A stretch of 8,769 bases of DNA from assembly GCA_027063755.1 (NCBI GenBank), contig JAMORD010000074.1:1-8769 (forward strand). Direction: 5' to 3'. This document shows, piece after piece, positions 1 to 8,769 of the stretch (the stretch's first letter is position 1; the number at the start of each line of letters is the position of its first letter). Below the pieces are notes generated by a model, which was not told where the DNA came from, ran no database searches, and saw only the letters and a list, made by a program, of their open reading frames with translations. The translations under genes and the position numbers were made by a program. Origin of the DNA: a bacterium (GTDB lineage: Bacteria > Coprothermobacterota > Coprothermobacteria > Coprothermobacterales > JAADFF01).

Positions 1-988
1 TACTCCAACTTCCCCCAAGTCTCTCCCAGCGAAAACGGTTGATACCCTCACCTATCAGCCTCAGTGCCATAAGACCATACTCCACCAAAAGGTCTTTTCT
101 ACTTACCACTTCGTATGTCCTCCGAACATCTCCTACAAGATAGTTGTTGATCGTAGGCAGATTTTCATATCTCACAAAGTTCACAAAGCCCCATGCCGAT
201 ATCCCCACCCCAACATAAAAGTCTTGATGCCAATACACAATATTATGTTGGCTCTTGTATCCCGGTAGGGCAAAGTTTGATATCTCGTAATGGTGATATC
301 CCATATCTCTCATAAAGGCATACAGCCATACCATATCCTCATATAAAGTATCTTCCGCCACAGGTTCCCACTTACCACCACGAATGAGAGAATAGGCCAT
401 CGTTCCCTCGTGTATATCCATCATATACACAGACATATGGTTAGGTTTCATGTCTACAATCGTCTCAATGTCTTTTCTAAACGGCACAGACACACCATAG
501 GGCAGATAAGTAGGATAAATCATATCCACATTGAAATTCATGCCACTTTCCGCAAGGCACCCTATGGCCCTAAGAGAATCTTTGGCTGTATGTTTTCTGT
601 TCCAAGCAGACAAGAGTTCATCACTGAGCGTTTGCACACCAACAGACACCCGGTTTATACCCATAGATGTGACATGGGAGAGCCAATCACGAGATATGTC
701 TTCAGGATTAGCTTCAATGGTAAATTCCACAGGAGTTCCCCACTTGCGCACCTTTGATGCAATCTTATCAATAAGAGAAAGGGGCAATGCCGATGGGGTC
801 CCACCACCAATATATGCCGTATACAAGGTGGCATCAGGCAATGCCTGATGCCACCAATCTATTTCTTCAAGTAGCCTATCCACATACTGTCTTTCAATAT
901 CCTTCTTAAGCAGAGGATATGAGACAAAGTCACAATATGCACATTTGTAGCGACAAAATGGAACATGTATATACAGAGATAGCCTCAA
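1..988 (-). CDS. hemW: Radical SAM heme chaperone HemW (C-terminus cut by window edge)
   Basis: This is the first 329 residues of a HemN/HemW-family radical SAM protein. HemW carries heme to target proteins and differs from coproporphyrinogen dehydrogenase HemN. The 4Fe-4S ligands are Cys12, Cys16 and Cys19 in [10 protein letters not shown]; the residue two after the last Cys is Phe, as in HemW, not Cys as in HemN. Further marks are GGGTP (61-65), the EANPED strand (92-97), [10 protein letters not shown] (110-119), HYEISNFA (233-240) and the HNxxYW heme-binding signature (248-253). The usual D-L-I-Y-G-L-P-G-Q motif is altered after DMIY (155-158). The start is TTG at 988, fixed by GGAGGT five bases upstream. 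It overlaps the lepA stop as TTGA, so translation is probably coupled. Roughly 50-60 C-terminal residues should lie beyond position 1. I see no frameshift. Confidence 0.9.
827..855. repeat. Perfect 14-bp inverted repeat with 1-nt centre inside hemW
   Basis: The left arm GGTGGCATCAGGCA (827-840) is the exact reverse complement of the right arm at 842-855, with a single A at 841. Pairing stops at the next outer bases (A826, A856). The DNA is a 29-bp near-palindrome, and a transcript of either strand could form a strong hairpin. It encodes residues around [10 protein letters not shown] of HemW. The spacing between the LLEEID helix and IGGGTP matches ordinary HemW proteins as I remember them, so it does not look like an inserted element. 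It is too deep in the gene to be a terminator with a U-tract, and none follows. Confidence 0.9.
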
Positions 989-2784
989 TCTTTACCTCCC
1001 CCACTATCAACTTTTAGCACCTCAAGAAATGCCTCTTGAGGTATACTAATACGGCCAAACTTCTTCATACGCTTCTTACCCTCTTTTTGTTTCTGGAGGA
1101 GTTTCTTCTTTCTACTGACATCTCCACCATAACACTTGGCAAGCACATCTTTTCTCAAAGGTCTAATATTTTCACGGGCAACAATGCGACCCCCAACTTT
1201 CGCCTGAAGTGCTATCTCAAACAACTGTCTGGGTATAACCTTTTTCAGTCTCAAGAGCACCTCTCTTGCCCTTCTCGTTGCATAGTCCTTAGGGGCCACA
1301 AACGACAAGGCATCAACTGGTTTTCCGTTGACAAGTATTTCCACTTTGACAACATCAGCAGGTCTATAACCAAGGAAATCATAGTCAAAGGAGGCAAAAC
1401 CACGAGAAACAGATTTTAGCTGGTCAAAGAAATCAAGAATAATCTCAGCATATGGAAGATCAAAGGTTAGGTGCACCCTGTTTTCAGATGGATACTCCAT
1501 GTGCACCATAACACCTCTACGGTTATGTGCCAGCTGCATTACAGGGCCAACATAGTCGTTGGGCACAATGATCTCTCCTCTAACATATGGCTCTTCTATA
1601 AGCTCTATTTCGGCAGGATCAGGAAAATCTGCCGGACTGTGTGCTTCTATAACCTCTCCATTTTTCTTGGTAATACGATAAATAACATTAGGTGTTGTAA
1701 TAACAAGCTCAAGGTCAAATTCTCTCTCAAGTCTCTCCCTAACAATCTCCATATGAAGAAGTCCCAAGAAACCACACCTAAAGCCAGGCCCAAGTGCCGG
1801 TGAGTTTTCTGGTTGGAAAAATAGAGCAGCATCATTCAGTGCCAGTTTCTGGAGGGCATCTCTAAGTTTTTCAAAATCCTCACTCTCCACAGGATACAAA
1901 CCGGCAAACACCATCGGTTTAACTTTTCTAAACCCCGGAATAGGCTCGCTGGCAGGATTCTGGGCCGATGTTACCGTATCACCAACCTGGGCATCACGAA
2001 TATTTTTAATTGTTGCTGCAATCCATCCAACCTCACCGGGGCCAAGTTCATCTGTCTGAACCATTTCAGGCCTAAAGATACCTAGCTCATTAACTTCATA
2101 TTCACTGCCTGTTGCCATGAGCTTTATCTTCATTCCCTTGCGTATAACCCCGTCAAAGACACGGACATAGATAATGACACCACGGTAATTATCGTATTTA
2201 CTATCAAATATGAGAGCCCTCAGAGGTTTTTCTGGCTCACCGCTGGGAGCAGGTATTCTCTCCTTTATAGCCTCTATCAGTTCATCTACTCCCCATCCCA
2301 TCTTAGCAGAGACTAATATAGCATCTGATGTATCTATACCGATAAGGTCTTCTATCTCCTGTTTAACCCTATCGGGGTCAGCTGCTGGAAGGTCTATCTT
2401 ATTAATAACGGGTATAATCTCCAAATCATTTTCTATTGCCTTATACGCATGGGCCAGCGTCTGAGCTTCTACACCCTGGGTGGCATCTACAACAAGAAGA
2501 GCCCCCTCACATGAGGCAAGGGCACGGGACACCTCATAAGAAAAATCCACATGGCCAGGGGTATCAATGATATTAAAACGGAAACCATCTATATCAAGCG
2601 ATACAGGATGAGACTTAATGGTTATTCCCCTTTCCCTCTCAAGATCCATTTGGTCAAGATATTGCTCTATATTTTGGGCTTTCCTATTGCCAGCCCTTTC
2701 CAAAAATCTATCTGCCAGCGTAGATTTTCCATGGTCTATATGGGCGATTATAGAAAATGTCCTTATTTTATCCATCGGAAACAT
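985..2784 (-). CDS. lepA: Elongation factor 4 (LepA), ribosomal back-translocase GTPase
   Basis: This 599-residue protein has the family's normal length. EF4 is a translational GTPase that binds ribosomes and has been linked to back-translocation and to 30S assembly. G1 is AHIDHGKST (14-22), the switch I motif is RGITIKS (52-58), G3 is DTPGH (74-78), G4 is NKID (128-131) and G5 is SAK (159-161). The later EF-G-like domains and the EF4-specific C-terminal domain ([20 protein letters not shown], and [15 protein letters not shown] near the end) are intact. The first ATG (2784) is chosen because GAGGTGAT sits five bases upstream; the second ATG at 2775 would be 14 bases away. The gene overlaps coaBC by 17 bp upstream and hemW by 4 bp downstream, so all three are probably one operon. 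Placement of lepA just before hemW is common in bacteria, for example in Firmicutes. Confidence 0.97.
994..999 (-). promoter_or_regulatory. Ribosome binding site of hemW
   Basis: GGAGGT on the minus strand, inside the last codons of lepA, lies five bases before TTG at 988. No ATG or GTG in the same frame lies nearby, so this site decides the non-ATG start of hemW. Confidence 0.8.
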
Positions 2785-3979
2785 GTTTTATCACCTCTCG
2801 CCATATACTTCTACTTATATCTCGCTTTGTACCATATGGTATATGCCTCTTTGCACCATCTTTAAATATAACATAGACCTCGTTATAATCACTACCAAAG
2901 CCTATTTCTTTTCTTGAAACATCATTGTAAACAATAGCATCTATGCCTTTATCATTCATCTTCTTTACAGCCCGCTCAACACCGGCCGTAGCCTCGGCAG
3001 AAAATCCAACAACATATACATCAGGATACTGGGCCTTTACTGTCTTTACAACATCGGGAGCAGGAGAAAGACGTATAACCATATCACCTTGACGTCTATT
3101 GAGTTTTCCTTCATGATGTTCGGGAATAAAATCACCCACGGCAGCTGACATGATAAGCATATCGGCATGTTGTAGATGCTCTTTCAACAAATCCATAAGG
3201 TCGTAAGCCGTATCAAAGAATTCTACTTTCGCAAAATGTGGTGCATCTACATAGCTACTCTTACCCAGAAGCAATATGACATTCGCCCCTAAAATCCAAG
3301 CCTCTCTTGCAAGTTCATACCCCATTTTTCCAGAAGATGGATTTGATATAAACCTTACATCGTCAATAAAATGTCGCGTAGGACCCGCTGTTATCACAAC
3401 TGTTTTTCCCTTAAGAGGTTTGGACTCCACCATGGCATACTCCACATAATCAATAATCTTATCTACTTCAGGAAAACGGCCCTTTCCTGTATCGCCACAT
3501 GCAAGATACCCACTATCTGGAGGCACTACAATATGCCCAGAATAAGATTCAGCAGTTTCTAAATTTCTCTGGGTTGAGGGATGCTCATACATGGCCGTAT
3601 TCATGGCAGGAACAAGTACAACCGATCCCGTAAAGGCAAGATATGTATCAAGAACTATATTATCAGCCATACCTGAAACCATTTTAGCAAGCGTATTAGC
3701 AGTGAGAGGTGCCATAACCATTACATCACCCCACTTTGCCGCTTCAACATGAGAAGCCCTTTTCCACTCTGGGTGGTCATCACCACGCATAACGAAGTTT
3801 CCACTAAGAGATTCCAATGTTCTAAAACCAATAAATTCCTCTGCTTTAGGTGTCATAAGTACTTGTACAGAGGCACCAAGTTTATGCATAGTACTTGTCA
3901 GATATGCCCCTTTATAGGCGGCTATACCACCTGTTATAGCATGCAGTATATGTTTTCCTTCCCACCTTTTATCCACCAT
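2768..3979 (-). CDS. coaBC: Bifunctional phosphopantothenoylcysteine decarboxylase / phosphopantothenate-cysteine ligase
   Basis: This 403-residue fusion enzyme makes 4'-phosphopantetheine in coenzyme A synthesis. CoaB joins cysteine to phosphopantothenate using CTP; CoaC then decarboxylates the product with FMN. The N-terminal CoaC flavoprotein domain shows ITGGIAAYK (15-23), catalytic His77 in ASHVE, PAMN (124-127) and Cys161 in ACGDTGKGR. The CoaB domain begins near 190: TAGPT (197-201), Asn213 in [15 protein letters not shown] (279-283), Lys292 and [17 protein letters not shown] (352-368). These match the known catalytic positions of E. coli Dfp. The frame stays open upstream to 4114, but the start at ATG 3979 has AGGGGG five bases before it, while ATG 3997 has no such site and longer versions would run through padR. 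It is the first gene of the coaBC-lepA-hemW operon. Confidence 0.95.
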
Positions 3980-4022
3980 TAACGCCCCCTTTTTCATATG
4001 ATACACTACAGAAAAGGGAGGG
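3980..4022. promoter_or_regulatory. Divergent coaBC/padR intergenic region with overlapping promoter candidates
   Basis: Only 43 bp separate the coaBC start from the padR ATG at 4023, so both promoters and any operator must lie here or inside the genes. TATGAT (3997-4002, plus) and TATCAT (4003-3998, minus) are overlapping -10 candidates about 20 bases from each start. I see no good -35 for either. The gap is nearly mirror-symmetric: CCCTTTTTC (3987-3995) faces GAAAAGGG (4011-4018), an inverted repeat with one base missing in one arm. Part of this symmetry comes from the two ribosome binding sites. A PadR autoregulatory operator is plausible but not shown. Confidence 0.4.
4016..4022 (+). promoter_or_regulatory. 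Ribosome binding site of padR
   Basis: GGGAGGG touches the in-frame ATG at 4023, leaving no spacer, but is six bases from the in-frame GTG at 4029. The spacing therefore favours GTG. Confidence 0.6.
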
Positions 4023-4028
4023 ATGTTT

Positions 4029-4403
4029 GTGCCAGGAAGACGAGGATCTGGACGAGGAATGCGATGGGGAGGATACGGTGGATGGTTTCTAAAGCTTCTA
4101 CTTCTCTTACTCATAAGAAGGGAACCATCTCATGGATATGATCTTGCAGCCAAATTGGCCCCATTCGGATATACAGTGCAAGGCAGGGGCGGCATGGGAC
4201 CTATTTATCGTGTACTACGAGAACTGGAAATGGAAGGGCTCATTGTATCTTCTTGGGAAACACCAGGACCAATGGGAGGTCCTGCACGAAGAATATATAC
4301 TATCACTCCTCTCGGCGAACAAACCCTCCGTATGTGGATAGAAGAGCTAAAAAGTCAGAGAGATATGATAGATAACATATTAAAGTTATATGAAGGTGTG
4401 TGA
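4029..4403 (+). CDS. PadR-family winged-helix transcriptional regulator
   Basis: This protein has 124 residues from GTG, or 126 from ATG at 4023. PadR proteins are dimeric DNA-binding repressors that often control transporters, stress genes or themselves. Numbered from the ATG, a Gly/Arg-rich leader (1-21) precedes LKLLLLLLIRREPSHGYDLAAKL (23-45), the first PadR helices with the SHGYDL signature. The recognition region is GPIYRVLRELEMEGLI (59-74), the wing is RRIYTITPLGEQTL (89-102), and the last helix MWIEELKSQRDMIDNIL is the usual dimerisation helix. Length is normal for the short PadR class without a long C-terminal domain. It is divergent from coaBC and ends one base from the CCA end of the opposing tRNA. 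The target is unknown; autoregulation or control of the divergent operon are possible. Confidence 0.85.
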   Translation: MPGRRGSGRGMRWGGYGGWFLKLLLLLLIRREPSHGYDLAAKLAPFGYTVQGRGGMGPIYRVLRELEMEGLIVSSWETPGPMGGPARRIYTITPLGEQTLRMWIEELKSQRDMIDNILKLYEGV

Positions 4404-4404
4404 G

Positions 4405-4494
4405 TGGCGGAGGGAGCGGGACTCGAACCCGCATGGCCGGAAGGCCACCCTCGGCTTTCGAGGCCGGGCCCTTAGCCAATTCGGGCATCCCTCC
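4405..4494 (-). tRNA. tRNA-Ser(CGA), CCA encoded
   Basis: Read on the minus strand, the acceptor GGAGGGA (4494-4488) pairs with TCCCTCC (4415-4409), followed by discriminator G and encoded CCA (4407-4405). The D stem is CCC/GGG. The anticodon loop is CTCGAAA with anticodon CGA at 4460-4458, reading UCG. The long variable arm TGGCC-TTCC-GGCCA and discriminator G are serine identity features. The T arm is GCGGG-TTCGAGT-CCCGC. The anticodon stem has four Watson-Crick pairs plus a C-A mismatch at the outermost position (27-43). Without CCA the gene is 87 bases. Confidence 0.96.
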
Positions 4495-4505
4495 ACCGAG
4501 TATGT

Positions 4506-4514
4506 ATTATAACA
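4506..4514 (-). promoter_or_regulatory. Extended -10 promoter of tRNA-Ser
   Basis: The minus strand reads TGTTATAAT, a perfect TATAAT (4511-4506) with the extended TGn element (4514-4512). It sits 11 bases before the mature tRNA 5' end, which would leave a leader of about 4-5 bases. No good -35 is seen at 16-18 bp, as often in extended -10 promoters. The TATAAT overlaps the TAA stop codon (4509-4507) of the preceding gene. Confidence 0.65.
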
Positions 4515-5706
4515 CATCACTTGATAAAGCCTGTTCATAGGCTTTTCTGAAATACTCTTCCCCTTTTCTCTTGACAGATAATACAAGTTCCTCATCGGCA
4601 ACTGCCGTTATAAGAAACATTGATAGGGCCATTACCTTACGGGCTCTTAGTGCTCTCTTATACCCCTTTTCACTTTTGTATAGTTCATAGGTCTCTTTAT
4701 ACACACTAAGCTTCTCTAACCACCATCTATCTTCGGACATGACAGGTAATATGTCATGGCTCTTATAATAAGCAAACAATACCTGAAATAATTCATCAGA
4801 TGTAGGAATGGGAACAGAAACCTCATCAAGCATTGGTGAAACCGTCTCTTCTCGTAGAACTTCATCATTAGAAATCTGGGGGAAATACCGCCTTATATAG
4901 GAAACAGGAGTAATCATTCCTGCAATAGGAACAGTAGAAAAATCAAAGTACTCTTCTACATTCTCTAGCAATGTATCTCTAATCTTTTCTACATCGGCAG
5001 AAGATGCATATAGCAACAGATAACTTTTCCTTCTCAAATGCTTGATTTCTTCCAGATGCTCTCTAATAAAGGTCAGTTCTGTATCAATAATACTAGCCAG
5101 AGCAGTTAGAGCCTTGGCAAAGTCTTCATCACCTGCTGTCTTTGATGCCAATGCTTTTATAGATTCATATTCTGATATAAGTCTTTTATATAAATCTTCT
5201 CCACCATCACCCAGTGCAAACTTAGCACTCTTCCTGATATTGCTTAGTGCTGTTGTCAATAAACCGATATTTTCAGCGATGAGTCCTTCCGATTCATACA
5301 CCCTTAACATAGAAAGTATGCGAAGTATGTGTGTAATCTCCCTTTTAGTAGGAGGAGTCTTATAAAATGTTGCAATCTCAACCAAAATATCGGAAATGAT
5401 AAATAAAAATAATCTTCCATATAGAGTTAACTCATACATACCCCGACTACGCTTTAAAAGTAAGTTCTTAATGGCTATATCTATGACCTCATTTACGCCC
5501 TCCGAAAAACCATACCGCTTTTCAAATTCGGTAAGAATAAAATGCTCATCAACCAGCAACGAGGATATATTTCCCATCAAAACAATATGAAGTAATCTAA
5601 CAACATCTATAAAACGAGAACTTCTAATAATCTTCCCCCAGTTGTGTAATTGTTCCCAGCTGTCGCTATACCGTTTTAGTAGATCCGTAAATGTTATGTT
5701 ATTCAA
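4507..5706 (-). CDS. Hypothetical helical protein after the SMC gene; possible MukF/MksF-like kleisin
   Basis: This 399-residue protein is not firmly recognised. Residues about 30-110 look like a winged helix: helices in FIDVVRLLHIVLMG and VNEVIDIAIKNLLLKR, then a wing-like GMYELTLYGRLFLF. Residues 120-250 are helical with few prolines. A Pro-containing acidic linker follows (SPMLDEVSVPIPTSDELF, 290-307), then a charged helical C-terminus. MukF (about 440 residues) has the same broad layout, including a winged helix ending in YRLTPLG, a helical bundle, an acidic linker and a C-terminal domain. Position just after an SMC ATPase supports a kleisin role, but this is inference. The start TTG at 5706 has GGAGGT eight bases upstream and overlaps the SMC gene by 8 bp. 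The frame stays open to 5814, but the upstream part reads through the end of the SMC gene. No signal peptide or membrane segment is convincing. Confidence 0.75.
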   Translation of the reverse strand: MNNITFTDLLKRYSDSWEQLHNWGKIIRSSRFIDVVRLLHIVLMGNISSLLVDEHFILTEFEKRYGFSEGVNEVIDIAIKNLLLKRSRGMYELTLYGRLFLFIISDILVEIATFYKTPPTKREITHILRILSMLRVYESEGLIAENIGLLTTALSNIRKSAKFALGDGGEDLYKRLISEYESIKALASKTAGDEDFAKALTALASIIDTELTFIREHLEEIKHLRRKSYLLLYASSADVEKIRDTLLENVEEYFDFSTVPIAGMITPVSYIRRYFPQISNDEVLREETVSPMLDEVSVPIPTSDELFQVLFAYYKSHDILPVMSEDRWWLEKLSVYKETYELYKSEKGYKRALRARKVMALSMFLITAVADEELVLSVKRKGEEYFRKAYEQALSSDVL

Positions 5707-8509
5707 TTTTGATAACCTCCGATGCCATATTGAAAACATTTCTGGTAATGTGATAAATAAGAGCGTCATCTCTATCGGCAACCACCTTAGGGGGCTCAAC
5801 CATAGTAAATACATGTATCTGTCCGGGTACCTTCTCTAAAAGAAGTCTGAGTAGCTTACCAAAGTTTACTTTATCAAGATTTGTTTGGGCCTCATCTATC
5901 ATAAGAAAATGTACATCACCTGTTTTAACCATCCATGCAGCAAGATACAAACTAAATGCTACCAAAACCCCCTCACCACCAGACAGACGCATAACATCGT
6001 AGTCATTCCATACCCCGTCTCTTGAACGAATAGATACCATAACATCCCCCACTGTCTTGGGGGCTTCTGTATCTATGTGTATCTCTATTTTCCCATCAAA
6101 GCCAAATGTTGAAAGGAAGTCAGAGAATATATCGGTTATCTTAACTTGTATCTGCTTAATAGAATCTATGAGATTTTTCTTCATATGCATTAGGTCATTT
6201 AGTGCCTCTGCCTGCCATTTTTCTACCTCTTCAAACCGCCTTTTCATATTTTCTACAGTCTTTTTCATCTCTTCATATCTATCTGTAACATCCTCAACCT
6301 CTCCCATGCCCTGTAACTTCGCCTCCAAAATGGCAATCTGCCTATCTATAGACAGAACAGACATATCTCCATCATAAGCAGCTGCCTCCTCAAGGAGAGA
6401 CTTATCATAAACACTGAGTTTGGCAGAAATGGCAAGCATTTTATCTTTCAGCGTCAACATATCTCTCTTCATCTTGGAAACAACACCCTTCAGCTTTGTA
6501 ATATCCTTTTCCAGATAACGCTTGTCGGTTGTGGCAGAAGACAATCTTGCAACAATATCTTCTACTTTCTTTTTATCGGGTGTATCCCTCTTTATTGTTT
6601 CAAGCTGCTGATACAGTCTGTCTCTACGCTTCTTCAACGACAAAAACCTCATATATTTTAATGTCTGCTCGGCAAGTTCTTTATCGTGCTTCAATACTTC
6701 AACCTTGCTATCCAAACGGCGAATCTCTTCAATAATTTTAGAGACATCTGGCATAGAGCGAAGTTTATCTTCCAAAGAGCGTATATCTGTCTGCACAAAT
6801 CTCACACGATCTTGATACCTAACATATGCTTTATGCTGTACCTGAAGCTGCCTATACTCTTTTTCCATTGTCTCAAGTTTGGCTTCAAGCTCATCTGTTT
6901 CAATGTGATCTATCTGCTCTGAAGACAATGCAAGCTGAAGTCCACTACCAGGATCCTCCCATATACCCCACCAATCCCACATCTCATCTTCAGCAATGGC
7001 AAGTGCTCCCTTAGAACGAACTTCATCTGCCATTTGCCTACTTTCCACTACATACACACGACTCAACAACAAGGCTATAACTTCATCATCGGTTTCAACA
7101 AACTCTATTAAAGATGGATAAGGTAAAGAAGGTGTATTTTCTAAGGGAGCAATGTCCTTATCTATAAATAGTGCAAGCACCTTAGAAATAACTGGAGCAT
7201 ATCGTTCATCTTTTACAACAACAGGACTCTGTTTCAGTTTAGCCTGCCACCGCTTATACCGCTCTTTTATATCATCAATACGCCTCTTCAAAGAGGAAAT
7301 ATCCTCTGCAAGTTGTGACATCATGTCTTCGTCAACCGGTTCTGGGGCATCTTGTATTAGTTTTTGTAGTTCTTCTCTCCGCTCATCAAGCAAGCGGGCA
7401 ATAGATTCCCTTTGTCCTTTGACCGTCTCCTGTTTACCCTTTAACGTATTCTTCTTTCGTAAGAGAGATTTGATCTGTTCTTCTATCTTGGATATTTCTG
7501 TTTCAAGTTGTGGAATTGTCAAAGGCATATACTTATCGTCTACTGGTTCTTTAACATCTCCCAATTCTTTTAACTGTCCTTCTACTTTTCCTATATCAGC
7601 AAGAACACGGTTCTTTTTGATCTCAAATGTCTCAACAGCTTCGGTTAGTTTCTTATACTCTTTAGAAAGCAACTTTTCCGTCTTCTCTGTCTCTGCAAGG
7701 AGAACTTCTTTTTCTTTTAGCTCTTTTACCATTTGCTTATGTTTCCTACACAAACTGCCATATTCAGATGCCAGTTCACGTAGCTGTTGTACAAAAGATG
7801 CTGCCCTGACAACTTTCTTTAGCGTTTTTAATTTCTCTATCTCTTCCCTAACAGTCTTATACTCCAAAAAGCGTTCATACTGTGTTTTTATTAGCTCAAA
7901 GTTTCTTGAAACATCAATGAGGTCTAATTTTGCTTCTTTGTATATCTCCATAACTCTATCGTAGTCTAACTTTTTCTCTTCCAGCACACCAATGAAATCT
8001 CTAATCCCCATAAGATCCATAAGGGCCGTAAAGCGTCTGCGTCTATGTTCCGAAATACCTCTTTTCTTAATGTGTTCTTCAACGGCAGAACGAAACGGTA
8101 ATGGAATGGATCCCATCTGAATAAAAACCTGATTAGGAGAAGCACCTATGGACGCAAAATACTCACTAAGACGGGTATGTGATATGCGTTTTCCATCTTC
8201 ACCTATACGATAATGTGCCTTTTTACCAATCTGCTTTTCAAGATGTACATGAAGTACATCACTACGGGGAACAAGCGAAGATGTCACATCAGAAACATCA
8301 AATATCCCCTCCACCTCCAAAACTTCTTCTCCCATACGGATATCCCCATCTTCTGGCTCCATACCCACAAGAAACAATAGTGCACGGGCAATAGTCGTTT
8401 TACCCGAACCATTCAGACCATAGTAGTAAATTAGCTTTGCGTCTTGATAATCTAGTATTGCCTCCACATAAGAACGCACATTTCTCAACTTAAGTTTCTT
8501 CGGTCTCAC
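5699..8509 (-). CDS. SMC-type coiled-coil ATPase (MukB/MksB/condensin-like)
   Basis: This 936-residue protein is an SMC/Rad50-superfamily ATPase, the class that folds, links or repairs DNA. The Walker A is GLNGSGKT (31-38), the Q-loop Gln131 lies in NQVFIQMG, the ABC signature is LSGGE (842-846), and Walker B ends in D872-E873, followed by AQTNLD (874-879). The H-loop has no histidine (FTMVEP). Charged coiled-coil arms run about 165-425 and 535-795. Between them, about 429-530, is a small hinge-like domain: DERYAPVISKVL resembles the start of an SMC hinge, and PSLIEFVETDDEV...LLLSRVYVVES...ALAIAEDE resembles its second half. It is shorter than canonical Smc (about 1180) and MukB (about 1480). 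Walker B followed by Ala (DEA) recalls MukB as I remember it. The GTG start at 8509 has GGGAGGG seven bases upstream; a TTG at 8524 in the same frame would contain that site. It overlaps the preceding gene by 20 bp and the next by 8 bp. Confidence 0.93.
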   Translation of the reverse strand: MRPKKLKLRNVRSYVEAILDYQDAKLIYYYGLNGSGKTTIARALLFLVGMEPEDGDIRMGEEVLEVEGIFDVSDVTSSLVPRSDVLHVHLEKQIGKKAHYRIGEDGKRISHTRLSEYFASIGASPNQVFIQMGSIPLPFRSAVEEHIKKRGISEHRRRRFTALMDLMGIRDFIGVLEEKKLDYDRVMEIYKEAKLDLIDVSRNFELIKTQYERFLEYKTVREEIEKLKTLKKVVRAASFVQQLRELASEYGSLCRKHKQMVKELKEKEVLLAETEKTEKLLSKEYKKLTEAVETFEIKKNRVLADIGKVEGQLKELGDVKEPVDDKYMPLTIPQLETEISKIEEQIKSLLRKKNTLKGKQETVKGQRESIARLLDERREELQKLIQDAPEPVDEDMMSQLAEDISSLKRRIDDIKERYKRWQAKLKQSPVVVKDERYAPVISKVLALFIDKDIAPLENTPSLPYPSLIEFVETDDEVIALLLSRVYVVESRQMADEVRSKGALAIAEDEMWDWWGIWEDPGSGLQLALSSEQIDHIETDELEAKLETMEKEYRQLQVQHKAYVRYQDRVRFVQTDIRSLEDKLRSMPDVSKIIEEIRRLDSKVEVLKHDKELAEQTLKYMRFLSLKKRRDRLYQQLETIKRDTPDKKKVEDIVARLSSATTDKRYLEKDITKLKGVVSKMKRDMLTLKDKMLAISAKLSVYDKSLLEEAAAYDGDMSVLSIDRQIAILEAKLQGMGEVEDVTDRYEEMKKTVENMKRRFEEVEKWQAEALNDLMHMKKNLIDSIKQIQVKITDIFSDFLSTFGFDGKIEIHIDTEAPKTVGDVMVSIRSRDGVWNDYDVMRLSGGEGVLVAFSLYLAAWMVKTGDVHFLMIDEAQTNLDKVNFGKLLRLLLEKVPGQIHVFTMVEPPKVVADRDDALIYHITRNVFNMASEVIKIE
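5715..5720 (-). promoter_or_regulatory. Ribosome binding site of the kleisin-like gene
   Basis: GGAGGT on the minus strand, eight bases before TTG at 5706 and inside the last codons of the SMC gene. It decides the start and implies coupled translation. Confidence 0.7.
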
Positions 8510-8769
8510 TATTATCCCTCCCAATTAGACGCCTAACTGATTCTTCACTAGCCCCCTGCCATACATCTCTCATGCTATTAGCTACCTTAGAGGTATCAAC
8601 AAGTCTTCTTAACAAGGCTGTAGGTCTAACAAAGACAAATCCTGTTTCCTCGTCATATTTTGTATGAATAAGTCCATAATCCTCCAGCTTGGCAATAAAC
8701 TTTTTTAGAGAAAGATTGTCTTTTACAATTCCTTTCTCTGAAAGCATATGAATTACATCTTCTGCAGAC
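8490..8769 (-). CDS. C-terminal part of a winged-helix-like protein upstream of the SMC gene
   Basis: The frame is open through the right edge, so the 92 visible residues are the C-terminus of a longer protein; the ATG at 8747 need not be its start. Helix-helix-wing character is visible: AEDVIHMLSEKGIV, then LSLKKFIAKLEDYGLI as a candidate recognition helix, then a beta-wing with HTKYDEETGFVFVRPT. A polar helical tail follows, ending in an acidic DNSETEET. Its stop lies 20 bp inside the SMC gene, so the two are probably co-translated. Winged-helix partners (MukE, MksE, JetB, ScpB) commonly neighbour SMC genes, so such a role is the leading guess, but no family-specific motif is seen. A DNA-binding regulator is an alternative. 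Confidence 0.65.
   Translation of the reverse strand, partial: SAEDVIHMLSEKGIVKDNLSLKKFIAKLEDYGLIHTKYDEETGFVFVRPTALLRRLVDTSKVANSMRDVWQGASEESVRRLIGRDNSETEET
8516..8522 (-). promoter_or_regulatory. Ribosome binding site of the SMC gene
   Basis: GGGAGGG on the minus strand, inside the end of the upstream gene, lies seven bases before GTG at 8509. Because it overlaps codons 1-3 of the longer TTG-started frame, it argues for the shorter 936-residue protein. Confidence 0.75.

Follow-up and report, generated by a model that had tools for sequence, protein, structure and literature searches.

Gene layout and surroundings of the operon

The analysed window, a stretch of 8,769 nucleotides, is the whole of one contig (C74) from a 1.5 Mb MAG of the phylum Coprothermobacterota. 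Three overlapping genes lie on its minus strand and encode a winged-helix protein interrupted by the contig edge (E), an SMC ATPase (SMC) and a kleisin-like protein (F). These genes, their motifs and domains, and the features next to them are as follows.

4023-4403, plus strand: PadR-type regulator (PF03551, 2.3e-14).
4405-4494, minus strand: tRNA-Ser(CGA), 12 nt downstream of F and identical at 90/90 positions in another species of the same genus (G001).
4507-5706, minus strand: F gene, 399 aa, TTG start, with a GGAGG Shine-Dalgarno sequence at 5716-5720; kleisin-like protein.
5392-5619, minus strand: N-terminal winged-helix domain of F (residues ~30-105), the best-predicted region of its model.
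5699-8509, minus strand: gene of the SMC ATPase (936 aa), which begins at a GTG and has GGGAGGG ahead of it at 8516-8522.
5873-5911, minus strand: Walker B and D-loop of SMC, HFLMIDEAQTNLD (residues 867-879), with the catalytic Glu873; invariant in the ortholog.
5972-5986, minus strand: ABC signature of SMC, LSGGE (residues 842-846), read from the sequence; invariant in the ortholog.
6905-7222, minus strand: central non-coiled region of SMC (residues ~430-535), a reduced hinge with a partial PF06470 match.
8393-8419, minus strand: Walker A of SMC, GLNGSGKTT (residues 31-39), read from the sequence; invariant in the ortholog.
8490-8769, minus strand: 3' part of the E gene, tandem winged-helix and KITE-like; the contig edge interrupts the frame.
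19442-19932 of L003 (contig C93 of the same MAG), plus strand: 5' part of the E gene, giving a full-length E of ~195 aa.

The original prediction, made from the sequence of the window, had described three minus-strand genes overlapping by 20 and 8 bp, and the open reading frames lie exactly so, with E and SMC sharing 8490-8509 and SMC and F sharing 5699-5706. Its description of the products, as a partial winged-helix-like protein, a 936-residue SMC and a 399-residue protein with an N-terminal winged helix, agrees with both the reading frames and the structural models. The start of SMC was picked by its Shine-Dalgarno sequence, while for F a longer alternative frame of 435 aa begins at 5814 and overlaps SMC by more than the 399-aa frame does. 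The missing 5' part of E is supplied by the end of contig C93, which very probably continues C74 because the two overlap over 186 nt (8584-8769) at 98% identity. The few mismatches in this overlap point to a strain mixture in the MAG as the likely cause of the assembly break.

Where a JetD-like nuclease or another partner had been envisaged upstream of E, contig C93 carries instead two divergently oriented MurJ/MviN-like genes, followed by an ABC transporter set (translations inspected). No nuclease gene, JetD-like included, was recognised beside the operon in the translations of C93 and the window. The neighbours of the operon (MurJ-like, tRNA-Ser, PadR, CoaBC, LepA and HemW) are housekeeping genes and none is a defence gene. 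The PadR frame overlaps a long coaBC ORF called from 4114, and the true start of coaBC is probably a more downstream one, as it is in G001. Identity to G001 at third codon positions is 66-75% in the hemW-lepA-coaBC-padR block (1-4403) and 42-63% in the operon, MurJ and parAB genes, the shift falling at tRNA-Ser. Because the block stands above these other genes, its values suggest a recent homologous recombination.

Sequence and predicted folds of the three proteins

The SMC matches Pfam SMC_N (2.6e-16) and reaches 90.5 bits against NCBIfam SMC_prok_B, which is below the cut-off of 567. Two arms of ~250 residues each, delimited by composition and not by a coiled-coil predictor, surround a centre of ~105 residues, in which a canonical hinge can be made out just in its C-terminal half, and weakly so (PF06470, E=0.023, profile positions 77-115 of 116). 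A local HMM for the hinge scores 7.4 bits vs 3.9 for the best of 200 shuffles, and the hinge alone gave no match to the sequences of solved structures. The central region of the SMC has no Cys and there is no CxxC motif, so the zinc hook of Rad50/SbcC is absent, and its neighbours are E and F, with no adjacent Mre11/SbcD.

The SMC head averages 22% identity with Smc, 20% with SbcC and 16% with JetC, and the spacing from signature to Walker B is Smc-like. In a tree of 46 head domains (LG+G4), the SMC and its ortholog share a branch of length 2.2, which separates from one group made up of Smc and Rad50 (support 94) and from another made up of JetC and MukB (support 99). The head therefore appears to lie outside both groups, on a long branch that may be misplaced. 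An undescribed SMC branch had been suspected from the sequence, and the suspicion held up, as neither this tree nor a search of 386 genomes with the SMC profile yielded a close known relative.

The E protein was modelled from its complete G001 ortholog at low confidence (pLDDT 56), and the model contains two winged-helix units. In Foldseek, JetB came out on top (E=0.0018, prob 0.99); Nse1/Nse3 and further KITEs came next, and ScpB stood at rank 16. Of the resemblance to MukE/MksE/JetB expected of the full protein, that to JetB is thus seen. In VIA, all alignments longer than 140 residues were to KITEs, at middling Z values of 6.0-6.9. At the level of sequence, the ortholog gave E=0.088 to DUF4194 (PF13835, the JetB/MksE domain), which is below the cut-off, and the part of E that was read has no JetD contact motif of the IFDR type. 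Judged from its model, E can be assigned to the KITEs with considerable confidence.

The model of F (pLDDT 45) is poor except in the N-terminal winged helix. Foldseek ranked MukF(1-287) first for it (E=0.11, prob 0.84), and its 50 best matches included six chains of MukF/JetA. In VIA, the match with Wadjet-II JetA had Z 9.8 across 95 residues, a value level with many generic winged helices; because such helices dominate the VIA results, the assignment draws on the Foldseek ranking and the overall layout, in which a winged helix, helices, a loop-rich linker and C-terminal helices follow each other as in MukF. No sequence family or profile matched F. Of the expected resemblance to MukF/MksF/JetA, that to MukF and JetA accordingly appears in the fold of this model and not in the sequence, and we consider F a likely kleisin. 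A search of solved-structure sequences returned nothing significant for E or F, and hhalign of both against JetA, MukF, ScpA, JetB, MukE and ScpB gave no signal, the two-sequence profiles being a weak query.

Conservation of the operon and chromosome machinery of the phylum

In G001, the second species of the genus, the E-SMC-F order and both flanks (the MurJ pair on one side, tRNA-Ser/padR/coaBC/lepA/hemW on the other) are kept, and the conservation of gene order anticipated for related genomes is thereby seen. Identity between the orthologs is 80% for E, 76% for SMC and 71% for F, and the G001 E is complete at 195 aa. Wherever dS between the two species is measurable, dN is much lower (0.23 vs 3.5 for F, 0.14 vs 1.8 for E), which marks E and F as conserved coding genes; the dS of SMC is saturated. 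Third-position identity is 47-55% in the operon genes and 47-63% in parAB and the other genes compared, and because of this likeness the operon was probably already present in the common ancestor of both species. A recent foreign origin is unsupported, since both the third-position divergence and the GC3 of the operon (~30-35%) are ordinary for the host genome.

Outside the genus, only chance-level matches were found among 386 genomes, viral contigs, plasmids and phages. Across the 386 genomes, the F profile detected its own genus and weak matches in two genomes, one of which is an ORF that resembles a Dop/Pup-ligase gene, has no SMC nearby and was judged a chance match; the SMC profile detected its own genus and, weakly, one sequence that seems to be a canonical Smc. 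Viral contigs held no match for SMC, F or E, plasmids held none for F or E and one for the SMC head (28% identity, E=0.6), and the sole phage match was an exonuclease (E=0.1). The SMC-like ORFs of sister genomes (~970 aa and 762 aa) adjoin SbcD-like genes and were read as SbcC. The operon is described nowhere in the literature searched.

The phylum was sampled with nine genomes (G000-G008), one of them 99% complete and assembled as a single contig, and a sister family of the same order was represented by one single-contig genome of 1,424,912 bases. Canonical Smc was absent from all nine, the best score (52.9 bits, cut-off 567) being that of the ortholog of the present SMC, and ScpA (PF02616) and ScpB (PF04079) were likewise absent from 9/9. 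The positive controls of these searches were found, and Smc was detected in 41/60 sampled genomes. ParB was present in all nine phylum genomes. The literature searched contains no report that Smc is absent from Coprothermobacterota. As a side observation, a 1.2 Mb genome of another family (G010, 99% complete) also has no Smc above the cut-off, no ScpA and no ScpB.

The domain of JetA/MksF (DUF3375, PF11855) was found in neither the host nor any of the nine phylum genomes, while six other genomes exceeded its cut-off. JetD_C (PF09983) was missing from the five phylum genomes tested, both carriers among them, and the C. glutamicum control was positive. In the two carriers, the operon is the sole SMC complex detected by the searches, which covered Smc, ScpA, ScpB, JetA and JetD. 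As both carriers are incomplete MAGs (88% and 93%), the absence of a gene from either one alone is weak evidence, and the absence of Smc-ScpAB across nine genomes is stronger. The seven sister genomes yielded neither the operon nor Smc-ScpAB, which argues that a condensin is dispensable in the phylum and counts against a chromosomal role of the operon.

Proposed function and relation to known SMC complexes

Given this composition, we read the operon as a KITE-type SMC complex, with E as KITE, SMC as ATPase and F as kleisin, and lean modestly towards it being the chromosomal condensin of the genus, because the phylum is without Smc-ScpAB yet keeps ParB. The genome context favours a chromosomal role, as does the fact that this is the only SMC complex detected in the two carriers, and for a complex so specific to one lineage we prefer a chromosomal function over a defensive one. 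We infer the subunit assembly, the loop extrusion and the chromosomal role as follows. Two SMC protomers would dimerise via the reduced hinge, and F would link their heads: its N-terminal winged helix and helical bundle would contact one head at the neck, and its C-terminus the other at the cap. The middle region of F would hold E, and ATP-driven engagement of the heads would capture DNA and extrude loops. A more far-reaching possibility, which we put forward tentatively, is that the operon represents a separate class of SMC-kleisin-KITE complexes outside both Smc-ScpAB and MukBEF/MksBEF/Wadjet, with a reduced hinge, serving as the main chromosome folder of a lineage that has ParB and is without Smc-ScpAB.

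The restriction to a single genus is also compatible with defence, and together with strong divergence it is among the traits of conflict systems (PMC10586767). Joined to the JetB-like E and to an F that resembles MukF/JetA by fold, it would suit a Wadjet- or MksBEF-like complex acting on plasmids or small circular DNA, with its nuclease encoded elsewhere or replaced. We consider this unlikely, though deserving of attention: neither host genome has a JetD_C domain, no nuclease gene was recognised beside the operon, the part of E that was read is without the IFDR-type motif, the SMC head appears to fall outside the JetC/MukB group, and the locus has stayed stable amid housekeeping genes in both species.

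The proximity of the SMC head to canonical Smc rather than JetC invites a different explanation, in which a strongly diverged Smc-ScpAB has been brought together as scpB-smc-scpA, E and F being derived forms of ScpB and ScpA, respectively. The Smc-like spacing of signature and Walker B, the hinge trace of the PF06470 kind and the presence of ScpB among the fold matches of E all accord with it. However, no ScpA or ScpB profile matched, F (399 aa) is longer than the compared ScpA (244 aa), its first fold matches are MukF/JetA, and the head branches outside the Smc clade, although on a branch long enough to be misplaced, so that we hold this explanation to be improbable. The top PADLOC profile for the SMC, LmuB at 66.5 bits, and a chance-level MC4 match of E would fit a relative of Lamassu and the ABC-three-component systems, consisting of a Rad50-like ATPase, a small middle component and F as effector. 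This seems very improbable indeed, as F has no effector domain, PADLOC found no LmuA or LmuC match in F and the 3' part of E, the SMC is without a zinc hook and is 936 aa long vs ~650, and its Walker B Glu is intact where LmuB generally has Gln (PMC10586767). A phylum without Smc-ScpAB but with ParB offers a natural test both of the role that ParB plays when Smc is missing and of the ability of a diverged complex to replace Smc-ScpAB. The small hinge furthermore bears on work that treats the hinge as a gate (PMC12647877).

Of the known systems, Wadjet JetABC(D) and MksBEF(G) share with the operon a set of SMC, KITE and kleisin-like genes, JetB is the nearest solved fold to E, and the winged helix and helical layout of F match JetA. 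They run in the order F-E-B (mksFEBG for the mks operon; PMC10123090), whereas the order here is E-SMC-F, and the operon is without JetD/MksG and without a DUF3375 match, its 936-aa SMC being placed by the head tree, on a long branch, apart from JetC. MukBEF is likewise a three-gene operon, and MukF(1-287) is the top fold match of F, but its order is mukF-mukE-mukB and its MukB has 1486 aa, the signature LSTGE and a long spacing from signature to Walker B. The original prediction had likened the set to MukBEF, MksBEF and Wadjet while remarking on its unusual order. The order, unlike mukFEB, mksFEBG and that of the jetABC(D) loci compared, is seen in two species, and the likeness stands for the three-gene set, the KITE-like E and the MukF/JetA-like fold of F; it does not extend to the SMC head, which appears to lie off the JetC/MukB branch, or to a JetA or JetD domain in the host.

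With Smc-ScpAB the operon shares Smc-like motif spacing, a hinge trace of the SMC_hinge family, an expected chromosomal role and the presence of ParB, and it differs in an SMC far under the family cut-off, the lack of an ScpA or ScpB match, the gathering of three genes in one operon, shorter SMC arms and a reduced hinge. Lamassu systems that contain LmuB resemble it in combining a coiled-coil ABC ATPase with partner genes and in the moderate LmuB profile match, but the operon has no effector domain or zinc hook, its Walker B Glu is intact and its SMC is longer. By architecture, the operon looks like a distant, uncatalogued SMC-kleisin-KITE variant, and its sequences do not place it in Smc-ScpAB, Wadjet/MksBEF or Lamassu. 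How SMC complexes of the MukBEF/Wadjet type arose has been called unresolved, and an ancestry in Smc-ScpAB has been put forward (PMC10586767). An SMC that has Smc-like spacing and a hinge trace, and whose partners resemble JetB and MukF, may represent an intermediate in that origin.
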